Part shown: positions 7,656-9,716 of the stretch, one piece after another | How the letters are laid out: each line of letters starts with the position of its first letter | Position numbering within the stretch: the stretch's first letter is position 1 | DNA from: Nocardioides panacis | Lineage (GTDB): Bacteria > Actinomycetota > Actinomycetes > Propionibacteriales > Nocardioidaceae | Assembly (NCBI RefSeq): GCF_019039255.1 | Contig: NZ_CP077062.1 | Coordinates: 3,844,001 to 3,908,000, forward strand | Length of the DNA stretch: 64,000 bases | Direction: 5' to 3' | The notes under the pieces: model-generated | Database searches by the model: none | The model's input: only the letters and a program-made list of their open reading frames with translations | What the model was told of the DNA's origin: nothing | Translations under genes and position numbers: made by a program

Positions 7656-7729
7656 CGGGCTGTGGCGCAGCTTGGTAGCGCGCCTCGTTCGGGACGAGGA
7701 GGCCGCAGGTTCAAATCCTGTCAGCCCGA
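7656..7729 (+). tRNA. tRNA-Pro(CGG)
   Basis: 74 bases fold as a cloverleaf. The acceptor CGGGCTG pairs with CAGCCCG, the anticodon stem is CCTCG/CGAGG, and the loop TTCGGGA gives anticodon CGG. The T arm contains GGTTCAAATCC. The discriminator is A and CCA is not encoded. Confidence 0.95.
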
Positions 7730-7882: not shown

Positions 7883-7912
7883 CTGACAGGACCTGACCGG
7901 ACCTGACTGGGG
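7883..7912. repeat. Three tandem 10-bp units CTGACNGGAC
   Basis: CTGACAGGAC, CTGACCGGAC and CTGACTGGGG follow each other without a gap. A 10-base period puts each unit on the same face of the helix, as in arrays bound by tandem regulators. The repeat lies in the long gap between tRNA-Pro and the secreted peptide gene. Function unknown. Confidence 0.45.
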
Positions 7913-7930
7913 CCGGAGGACGCCGATCCG

Positions 7931-8181
7931 GCCATCGGTCTAGACAGGTCGTCTCCCGCGCTGTCATGAATTTTCCGGTACTTCGGAAGGCTCCGGAACG
8001 GATCCGTCAAGGGGTTCGAGGGGTGCTCTTTCGAGCAATCCGAAGAGCAAAAAGGACATAGCGGGATCTTCTATGGCAAAGAATCTAGATCAATCTTTAC
8101 CATCGGACACCTCCACCGAACGGTCAGATTCTCTACACTCATCCTTACTATTTTGTTAGTTTTTCCACCCTGGGAGTAAGA
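7931..8181 (+). promoter_or_regulatory. AT-rich leader and candidate promoter of the peptide gene
   Basis: This 250-base stretch contains the only strongly AT-rich sequence of the neighbourhood (about 8030-8165). A plausible promoter is GTCAGA (8123-8128), a 17-base spacer and TACTAT (8146-8151), followed by about 30 bases to the peptide start. A GTCAAGG copy at 8006-8012 matches the repeats in front of the regulator gene. An inverted repeat GCTCTT/AAGAGC (8025-8030, 8043-8048) has no terminator tail. Nothing here is proven. Confidence 0.45.
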
Positions 8182-8307
8182 ATGCGCACCTCGATCCGTC
8201 TCTTCGTGGCCGGTCTCGTCAGCTTCGCCGTCGTCGGCGTCCTGCCCGCCACCTCCGCCGACGCCGCCCCCAAGGTCAGCGCGATCAGCACCGGCTGCTG
8301 CCGCTGA
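8182..8307 (+). CDS. Small secreted peptide, candidate pheromone precursor
   Basis: A 41-residue open frame with its own ribosome site (GGGAG, five bases before ATG). It has a textbook export signal: basic start MRTSIR, a hydrophobic core LFVAGLVSFAVVGVL (residues 7-21), and an AXA cleavage site S-A-D-A at 25-28. Cleavage after residue 28 would release the 13-residue APKVSAISTGCCR. Wobble positions are G/C as in real genes here. It lies 83 bases upstream of a HTH-TPR regulator on the same strand, the arrangement of RRNPP peptide-receptor pairs. No family match is known to me. The coding call is fairly secure; the signalling role is inference. Confidence 0.68.
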   Translation: MRTSIRLFVAGLVSFAVVGVLPATSADAAPKVSAISTGCCR

Positions 8308-8312
8308 TCACC

Positions 8313-8332
8313 GACCGCCTGTAAGGGCGGTC
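8313..8332 (+). terminator. Hairpin after the secreted peptide gene
   Basis: GACCGCC and GGCGGTC form a perfect seven-base stem around TGTAAG, five bases after the peptide stop. It may end or attenuate the peptide transcript ahead of the regulator, which seems to have its own promoter. There is no T-run. Confidence 0.5.
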
Positions 8333-8333
8333 A

Positions 8334-8383
8334 GTCAAGAATCTGTCAAGGACTCTCTACTGGCGTGTTGCTGCTCCTACTCT
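8334..8383 (+). promoter_or_regulatory. Regulator promoter with GTCAAG direct repeats
   Basis: TACTCT (8378-8383) ends seven bases before the regulator ATG, which fits a leaderless transcript starting at the ATG. GTCAAGAATCT (8334) and GTCAAGGACTC (8345) form a direct repeat with 11-base spacing, one helical turn. They lie just upstream of where the -35 region would be, a good place for an activator or autoregulator. Confidence 0.45.
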
Positions 8384-8390
8384 TTGATGC

Positions 8391-9716
8391 ATGAGCAGCA
8401 CAATTGGGACACGCATCCGAGACCTGAGGCAGTCCAAGGGACTGACGCAGCAGGCGCTGGCCGGCGACGGCATCAGCTCCGGCTATGTCTCCTTGATCGA
8501 GTCCGGCAAGCGCACGCCGTCCGACGACGTGGTTCGTCGCCTGGCGAAGCGGTTGGGCGTCCCCGTCGAGGCCCTGGTCGTAGCTGACCAGCCTTCGGCA
8601 GACGCCGACCAGGCACGCATGGAGATGAACTTCGCCCGGATGGCACTGGCGAACGGAGACTCCGCGCAGGCGGTGCGTGGGCTCCAGTCGCTTCCCCTTG
8701 ACCAGATGGACAGCCGCACGGCGCTGGACGCTGCCCTGGTTCTTGCCGAGGCGCTCGCTCAGACCGGCGAGCTCACGCAGGCCGTGGGGACGCTCGAGTC
8801 GATCATCGCCCGGTGCCGCCGCGAGCAGTCGTGGGTGACCTTGGCGACCGCGTCGGCCAGTCTCGTGATGATGTACGTCGAGTCCGGAGACAGTGACCGC
8901 GCGTGCCTGACCGCCGAGGCCGCGGTGGACGAGATCGTCGTGGCCGGCCTGGAGGGCACCGACGAGCACATCCGGCTCGGCGCCGTCCTCGTCTGGGCCT
9001 GCTACGAGCGCGGAGACCTCCTGTACGCGACGCGACGCGCCGAGGAGCTGATCGAGGTCGCTGACCGGCTCGGTTCCTCGCGAGCCCGTGGCGCGATCTA
9101 CTGGAACGCGTCGATGGTGGCGCACGGCCGTGGACGGGTGACCGACGCCCTCCGCCTCAGCGAGCGCGCCCTTGCGCTGGTCGCCGAGGAGGAGTCCGGC
9201 CGCGACCTCCCGCGGCTGCGCCTGCACTACGCCTGGCTACTGCTCAACAACGACTCCCCGCAGGCCCGCGAGGCCCTGGCGCAGCTCGACCGGGCCGAGT
9301 CGGACCCTGCGATCCTCGGCGACAAGTTCGACCTCGGCAACGCCGCCACGATGCGTGGTCGTGCCCACCTCTTCCTGGACGAGCTCGACGACGCCGCGGA
9401 GCAGGCTGCCCGCGCGCTCCAGCTGCTCGGACCGTCCGACCACATCAACCGGGCCGAGGCGCTCCTGCTGCTCGGTGACGTCGGCGCGGCCCGTGGCGAC
9501 GACGACCTCCGCAACGAGGCGTACGGCGAGATGGAGCTGGTGCTCTCCACGATGGAGCAGTCCCGCATGGTGGCCCGCATGTGGCGGGCGCTCGGCGACG
9601 CACTGCGGGAGTCGGGCGACGCCCTGGGCTCCATCGGCGCCTACGACCGTGCCCTGGGCATGATCGGGATGCCCCGTCGGGCCCGCTCCCGGATGCGCCA
9701 CCTCATCAACACCTGA
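8391..9716 (+). CDS. XRE HTH-TPR regulator, RRNPP-like peptide receptor
   Basis: A 441-residue protein with an N-terminal XRE-type helix-turn-helix (about residues 7-60, IRDLRQSKGLTQQAL ... YVSLIESGKRTPS). The rest, from about residue 75, is helical and made of degenerate TPR units such as AEALAQTGELTQAVGTLE and LGDALRESGDALGSIGAYDRA. This is the architecture and size of RRNPP regulators (Rgg, PlcR, NprR, AimR class), whose TPR part binds short imported peptides. A gene for a small secreted peptide sits directly upstream. There is no Rap-like phosphatase signature. DNA binding is likely; peptide sensing is inferred from architecture and context only. Confidence 0.85.
   Translation: MSSTIGTRIRDLRQSKGLTQQALAGDGISSGYVSLIESGKRTPSDDVVRRLAKRLGVPVEALVVADQPSADADQARMEMNFARMALANGDSAQAVRGLQSLPLDQMDSRTALDAALVLAEALAQTGELTQAVGTLESIIARCRREQSWVTLATASASLVMMYVESGDSDRACLTAEAAVDEIVVAGLEGTDEHIRLGAVLVWACYERGDLLYATRRAEELIEVADRLGSSRARGAIYWNASMVAHGRGRVTDALRLSERALALVAEEESGRDLPRLRLHYAWLLLNNDSPQAREALAQLDRAESDPAILGDKFDLGNAATMRGRAHLFLDELDDAAEQAARALQLLGPSDHINRAEALLLLGDVGAARGDDDLRNEAYGEMELVLSTMEQSRMVARMWRALGDALRESGDALGSIGAYDRALGMIGMPRRARSRMRHLINT

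Follow-up and report, generated by a model that had tools for sequence, protein, structure and literature searches.

The locus lies in a window of 64,000 nucleotides from Nocardioides panacis (the whole stretch of DNA analysed; contig NZ_CP077062.1, positions 3,844,001–3,908,000), to which all coordinates refer. A short frame with a signal-like start is followed on the same strand by a regulator gene, with these features:

8134–8139, plus strand: TACACT, putative −10 box of the peptide promoter (assigned by eye)
8144–8158, plus strand: CTTACTATTTTGTTA, putative operator of the peptide gene (CTTACN5TGTNA in the same place at five of five orthologous loci)
8172–8176, plus strand: ribosome-binding site GGGAG (from the sequence; CTGGGAG or TTGGGAG is common to the five orthologous loci)
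8182–8307, plus strand: propeptide gene, 41 codons plus stop (translation, five orthologues and a peptide profile)
8182–8265, plus strand: signal peptide, residues 1–28, with a predicted cut between ADA and A (by eye and a home-made rule)
8266–8304, plus strand: putative mature end APKVSAISTGCCR, 13 residues, variable in the genus except for CC[RK]
8296–8301, plus strand: Cys-Cys codons, both cysteines invariant in the five orthologues; the family signature
8313–8332, plus strand: intergenic inverted repeat GACCGCC-TGTAAG-GGCGGTC (from the sequence)
8354–8370, plus strand: CTCTACTGGCGTGTTGC, degenerate dyad copy before the regulator gene, putatively autoregulatory (by comparison only)
8391–9716, plus strand: XRE-HTH plus TPR regulator, putative peptide receptor, 441 residues (frame, Pfam, orthologues)
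9105–9107, plus strand: codon for Asn239 of a YWNAS motif (receptor alignment counts)

The propeptide MRTSIRLFVAGLVSFAVVGVLPATSADAAPKVSAISTGCCR, read from the ATG at 8182 to the TGA ending at 8307, opens with a basic n-region, followed by a hydrophobic core and an AXA-like site. The home-made rule used to call signal-like starts asks for a basic residue and, after it, a run of 12 that contains none of D, E, K, R, H, N and Q and at least eight of AVLIFMWC; gene starts were likewise assigned by simple rules. After a gap of 83 bases (8308–8390) comes the regulator, which matches HTH_3 (E = 4.7e-12, residues 9–61) and, both above cut-off, TPR_MalT (E = 4.7e-14, residues 91–304) and TPR_12 (E = 5.6e-8). 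The original prediction had described just such a frame, with its ribosome site, signal-like start and 13-residue end, ahead of an XRE-TPR regulator, and both genes proved to be as claimed. The host genome (G000) holds the regulator at full length once, with two further places matching the HTH only. A tRNA gene lies upstream at 7656–7729 and is the sole Rfam match between 7600 and 9800, where no leader RNA was found; a similar tRNA-like stretch can be seen by eye ahead of the pair in genome G004. The inverted repeat at 8313–8332 is followed by no T-run and is not obvious in the orthologues.

Regulator orthologues occur in five of seven same-genus genomes (own included; the other four are Nocardioidaceae metagenome bins) at 55–61% identity. 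Each of the five is preceded on the same strand by a signal-like frame of 36–52 residues with CC[RK] at its end (GCCR in our genome, then GCCR, YCCR, PCCRR and YCCK), and the stretch between signal part and Cys-Cys varies. These loci are chromosomal; asd-like genes adjoin them in G000, G004, G005 and G006, and in the first two of these genomes a tRNA does so as well. A profile of the five peptides, run over 341 family genomes with 21 candidates scored per genome, returned the same five at E ≤ 1.3e-15, the next best reaching 7.6e-5. G001 has only a 33% paralogue, without a CC peptide by our rule, and in G002 a full-length regulator match is absent; that two genus members live without the orthologue counts against a pheromone pair.

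A contig search with the single regulator protein gave no match. Of 341 family genomes, 118 had a match to the regulator (E 1e-20), and a profile of the five orthologues matched 61 genomes among 394 of the class (E 1e-40), our own being included in both counts; family matches outside the five orthologues share 28–39% identity. A search of the same-strand upstream side alone found no peptide beyond the genus, whereas with both strands and both sides searched a CC-ending peptide appeared at most relatives (62 of 77 regulator loci in a first set). For the final count we used 123 loci, a fetched subset of the listed matches, cleared of repeat fetches of the same place and of HTH-only hits; each locus was counted once, the frame lying within 600 bp and ending in CC or in CC plus one or two further residues. 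Such a signal-like frame is found at 96 of the 123 (genus 5/5; family 49/60, including one paralogue each of G001 and G005; class 42/58) as against none of 15 distant XRE-TPR paralogues, the division into relatives and distant paralogues having been drawn from profile scores and families after the peptides had been viewed. The check proposed in the original prediction, that the frame be kept wherever the regulator is kept, thus came out positive at all five orthologues and at these 96 wider loci.

Counting any ending, the 123 regulators have 160 short signal-like frames no more than 600 bp away, of which 95 end exactly in CC; no other terminal dipeptide exceeds four. At 600–1,700 bp from the same regulators one frame in 54 ends in CC, and at the distant paralogues none does (0/15 near, 0/20 far). 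Forty-two control loci (129,158 bases) gave two hits, both from the genuine G005 locus, itself among the controls. Of 94 CC-ending peptides, 60 have W, Y or F immediately before the two cysteines. A chance frame was therefore rejected, on recurrence at orthologues, the peptide profile, and the near-versus-far and paralogue controls. None of 11 peptides scanned matched NCBIfam above cut-off (one weak, unrelated match fell below it, and no leader family appeared), and none of seven scanned matched Pfam. Selection was measured in relatives outside the genus, where 11 sequences of family f21 (by our guess Micromonosporaceae) gave a pooled dN/dS of 0.38 over 55 pairs that are not independent; two single pairs gave 0.48 and 0.15. 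At the Cys codons of the 11 sequences change is synonymous only (pS 0.545, pN 0). The CC peptides measured evolve under purifying selection, and their Cys codons differ by silent changes only, where the original prediction had taken a ratio near one as grounds for giving it up.

Gene order varies. The peptide gene lies upstream on the same strand at the five genus loci and one class locus (6 of 96 CC loci), downstream and convergent at 47 family and two class loci, divergent at two family and 35 class loci, and in both divergent and convergent positions at four class loci. On a quick maximum-likelihood tree of 138 regulators these labels cluster, requiring 25 changes versus 70 in shuffles. One receptor can be flanked by both a divergent and a convergent CC peptide (L097, L098, L102 and L107, all f21), the second, convergent peptide ending in SDFCC, SDYCC or LYCC. 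At L228 (G167) three tandem, near-identical propeptide genes ending in RNVWCC follow the regulator, a triplet that we liken to the duplicated propeptides of RRNPP systems.

The 27 CC-negative loci comprise seven of one clade in family f18 (guessed to be Streptosporangiaceae from similarity to Nonomuraea) and 20 others. L117 has a CC peptide excluded by the length limit of the rule, L198 is cut by a contig end, and the peptide at L192 continues after CC with DAIPA; at 17 of the 123 loci no candidate peptide was found. These misses weigh against the pheromone reading. The seven f18 loci form a single receptor clade (SH-aLRT 100), and an apparent in-frame stop in f18 regulators proved to be the true protein end. 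At all seven a short, divergent, signal-like frame occupies the same position; its signal part is related, but CC is missing. Six of the tails are Trp/Pro-rich (GWGWPG, GWNHPG, GWVYPG, PWQWPI, PWGYPI and WNGPW) and the seventh is GPLNNAE, so that tail type tracks receptor clade in f18. The original prediction had raised a disulfide or metal link between the adjacent cysteines as a possibility; the loss of Cys-Cys in one receptor clade shows that receptors of this family can sometimes do without it, and the switch to Trp/Pro offers a natural experiment on the co-change of signal and receptor. A further f18 receptor clade (L121–L123) carries Glu as residue 239, and a short secreted frame was not found at its loci; these receptors may read another ligand.

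A phylum-wide sample of 396 genomes held seven relatives beside our own, in other classes of the same phylum. Close upstream of every one (L275–L281) lies a divergent hydrophobic frame of 28–40 residues, with tails FPWGGT, YPWPK, FPGP, FPWPK, YPWPK, WPWG and WPHVP (endings counted without a formal control). Because Trp/Pro-tailed relatives occur in other classes, the unit of receptor and short peptide may be older than the Cys-Cys ending. The original prediction underestimated the breadth: its pair is one arrangement within a family that spans the class and has Trp/Pro-ending kin elsewhere in the phylum.

A mobile origin was considered and rejected. IMG/VR gave 20 loci whose best segments cover only about the first 50–115 residues, a phage collection gave one unverified record, and the PLSDB matches were 14 plasmids of Streptomyces, one of Streptosporangium and an 11.85-Mb record of Nonomuraea gerenzanensis. 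Outside the 123-locus count, a CC-ending frame lies beside the relative in N. gerenzanensis and in all three plasmid records examined from the Streptomyces goshikiensis / Mg1 / ADI95-16 group. The Streptomyces plasmid frame is annotated as a hypothetical protein of 71 residues with its hydrophobic stretch further in, and is included here for its CC ending; on the linear plasmids (L141, L273 and L274) WP_008741297.1 and WP_123083198.1 end in KDIPLCC downstream of the XRE-TPR regulator. These three pairs adjoin a BTAD-domain regulator, an epimerase and a PIG-L deacetylase. No such secreted frame was seen in six further records, four of them from Streptomyces, one from Streptosporangium and one the unverified phage.

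In all five orthologous loci TACACT or TACAAT precedes a dyad in front of the peptide gene; a scan of 7900–8500 for sigma-70 consensus and T-run terminators found none. The form TTACN6GTWA occurs once in the window (8145–8158) versus 0.02 expected. The extended form CTTACN5TGTNA was derived from the five orthologue sites, so those match by construction; it occurs once each in G000, G004, G005 and G006 and twice in G003, once in G002, which has no orthologue, and not at all in G001. Our own genome has no second site. Before the regulator gene the degenerate copy at 8354–8370 has a perfect counterpart in G005, TTACTGGCCAGTAA, 35 bases ahead of the regulator start. The looser TTACN6GTAA has seven sites in our genome, three of which were inspected, and is also present in genomes without the orthologue; as it further stands before an unrelated gene, this dyad form is not special to the regulator. 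The site in question (L061, G000:C1:1414083–1414096) lies just before a 670-residue open frame that starts like an NAD-dependent epimerase/reductase. An epimerase-like gene with the same site is found in G003 and also in G001, which lacks the regulator, with no match in G004–G006, which have the regulator; on these grounds it was rejected as a target, and since the same gene has the site in G001, the L061 site probably belongs to another regulator. Dyad sites and neighbouring genes yielded no target besides the pair, which counts against the pheromone reading; neighbours differ by lineage, and no cluster among those listed covers more than 20 of 123 loci. A common metal or sulfur operon was rejected on the same count.

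Relatives' receptors are 424–488 residues long (77 translated, starts by rule). A profile of 24 of them matches PlcR (2qfc, E = 2.4e-14) over chain residues 1–189, from the HTH into the TPRs, stopping before the C-terminal TPRs; many generic and engineered TPR proteins match too, some of them, engineered ones included, better than PlcR. Common descent with the Bacillota receptors may lie behind the PlcR match, but generic TPR and HTH proteins match the profile too, and that some of them do so better than PlcR weighs against the RRNPP-like reading. The regulator also has partial similarity to the NsdA family of actinomycete TPR regulators (NF053720; residues 198–407), but its 29.6 bits fall well short of the 75 bits set as curated cut-off. 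We know of no peptide partner for that family. In RRNPP receptors Asn residues hold the peptide backbone. Among Cys-Cys receptors 88 of 96 have Asn239, which is missing from all seven of the Cys-less f18 clade and from all 15 distant paralogues; the eight Cys-Cys receptors that lack it include two in this genus. The alignment is suggestive of a contact between Asn239 and Cys-Cys; since the tree affords only two to four independent contrasts between Asn239 and tail, with a sign test that is not significant, we take this as a lead and not a result.

RRNPP systems are delimited, in the parts of PMC10075063 drawn on here, by a Sec-secreted propeptide of 10–100 residues, a receptor of about 250–500 residues with TPRs, and adjacent genes. 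Here the propeptide has 41 residues (36–52 in the orthologues), passes the home-made signal rule and has an AXA-like site; the receptor has 441 residues with TPR_MalT and TPR_12 domains, and the genes are 83 bases apart, while 96 of 123 relatives have a CC-ending frame no more than 600 bp away. The RRNPP(A) systems of Bacillota (Rap, Rgg, NprR, PlcR, PrgX, AimR and ComR) likewise join a small propeptide to an adjacent TPR receptor; as excerpted from PMC10075063 and PMC9765709, the mature signal there lies at the C-terminal end and duplicated propeptides occur. The actinobacterial pairs differ in belonging to another phylum, in being mostly convergent or divergent and in their fixed C-terminal Cys-Cys. 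To our knowledge no RRNPP pheromone ends in Cys-Cys. PapR7, the partner of PlcR in the Bacillus cereus group, is ADLPFEF, without Cys (from the section of PMC6568020 used here).

Other functions can be set against this likeness. The secreted Cys-Cys peptide could be an effector, a metal or thiol ligand or an antimicrobial, with the XRE-TPR protein merely controlling its expression in response to some other cue. In its favour, two adjacent cysteines would be suited to binding metal or forming a disulfide, and our genome has its single extended-dyad site at the peptide promoter. By sequence reading, moreover, the gene after the regulator is CopC-like in some f18 loci, and one Nocardioidaceae locus has CysN- and rhodanese-like genes close to the regulator. 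Yet neighbours depend on lineage, no listed cluster exceeding 20 of 123 loci, and one receptor clade and the other-class relatives have Cys-less tails, which a Cys-based effector would not allow; we regard this reading as unlikely. A toxin–antitoxin or immunity module, in which the XRE regulator restrains a small hydrophobic membrane toxin, would account for a small hydrophobic frame beside an XRE gene and for weak NCBIfam matches, confined to the HTH and below the cut-offs, to antitoxin-like families. It fits poorly with a peptide whose signal looks cleavable and gives way to a polar, variable part and a fixed CC, with the large TPR part of the regulator, and with a chromosomal genus locus placed by tRNA (G000 and G004) and asd-like genes (G000 and G004–G006), and we give it very little credence.

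Cysteine-attenuation leader peptides of actinobacteria are short frames with tandem Cys codons near the end. The frame at 8182 could by that model act in cis, ribosome stalling at its Cys codons under cysteine shortage controlling the regulator: tandem Cys codons adjoin its stop, it lies upstream on the same strand at all five genus loci, and in the window the small inverted repeat at 8313–8332 comes after it. The CC peptides nonetheless have a conserved signal-like start and often stand divergent from or downstream of the regulator, relatives carry Trp/Pro tails, and neither an Rfam leader nor an NCBIfam leader family was matched. Because the peptide gene can point the same way as the regulator, away from it or towards it, with only 6 of 96 CC loci placing it upstream on the same strand, a leader or attenuator role is excluded for the family as a whole; for this locus we hold it highly improbable.

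The pair is, in our judgement, probably an instance of an Actinomycetota family of peptide pheromones and receptors that works like RRNPP quorum sensing. The original prediction of a cell–cell signalling pair is supported by the peptide at five of five orthologues and the CC frame at 96 of 123 relatives versus none of 15 distant paralogues, with binding a matter of inference. The propeptide would be exported by Sec and cut by signal peptidase, and its last residues (commonly aromatic-Cys-Cys, CC[RK] in the genus) would be re-imported by an oligopeptide permease; SBP_bac_5 oligopeptide-binding proteins number three in our genome and are present also in 11 of 14 control genomes. Once inside, the tail would bind the TPR groove of the regulator and alter HTH contact with the dyad at 8144–8158 and with the regulator's own promoter, giving an autoregulatory loop. 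The dyad is placed at the expected transcription start point, which suggests that the peptide gene is repressed in one ligand state.

According to the passages of PMC10075063 used here, actinobacterial signals are typically small, enzyme-made molecules and Firmicutes signals gene-encoded oligopeptides, and the scan reported there covered Firmicutes and viruses only; in what we drew from PMC4748050, 'TPR' figures in the list of quorum-sensing domains predicted for some actinobacteria. The portions of the open-access literature consulted, including PMC10075063, PMC12700828, PMC9765709 and PMC4748050, describe no Cys-Cys pheromone and no studied RRNPP system in Actinomycetota, and an earlier description is possible. 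More speculatively, and with clear doubt on our part, the observations taken together could reflect a gene-encoded pheromone language of the Actinomycetota's own, with Cys-Cys tails in Actinomycetia, Trp/Pro tails elsewhere in the phylum and in one switched clade, and the vicinal cysteines serving as a redox or metal latch. If the latch reading is true, the receptor would read only the reduced, imported form, and the signal would report density and redox state together. The recurrent pairing suggests a family of peptide messages by which actinobacteria sense one another; a gene-encoded, species-variable peptide with an adjacent receptor in many actinobacterial families would change the picture given in those passages of PMC10075063, and the Cys-Cys tail would, if this is true, be a new pheromone chemistry.
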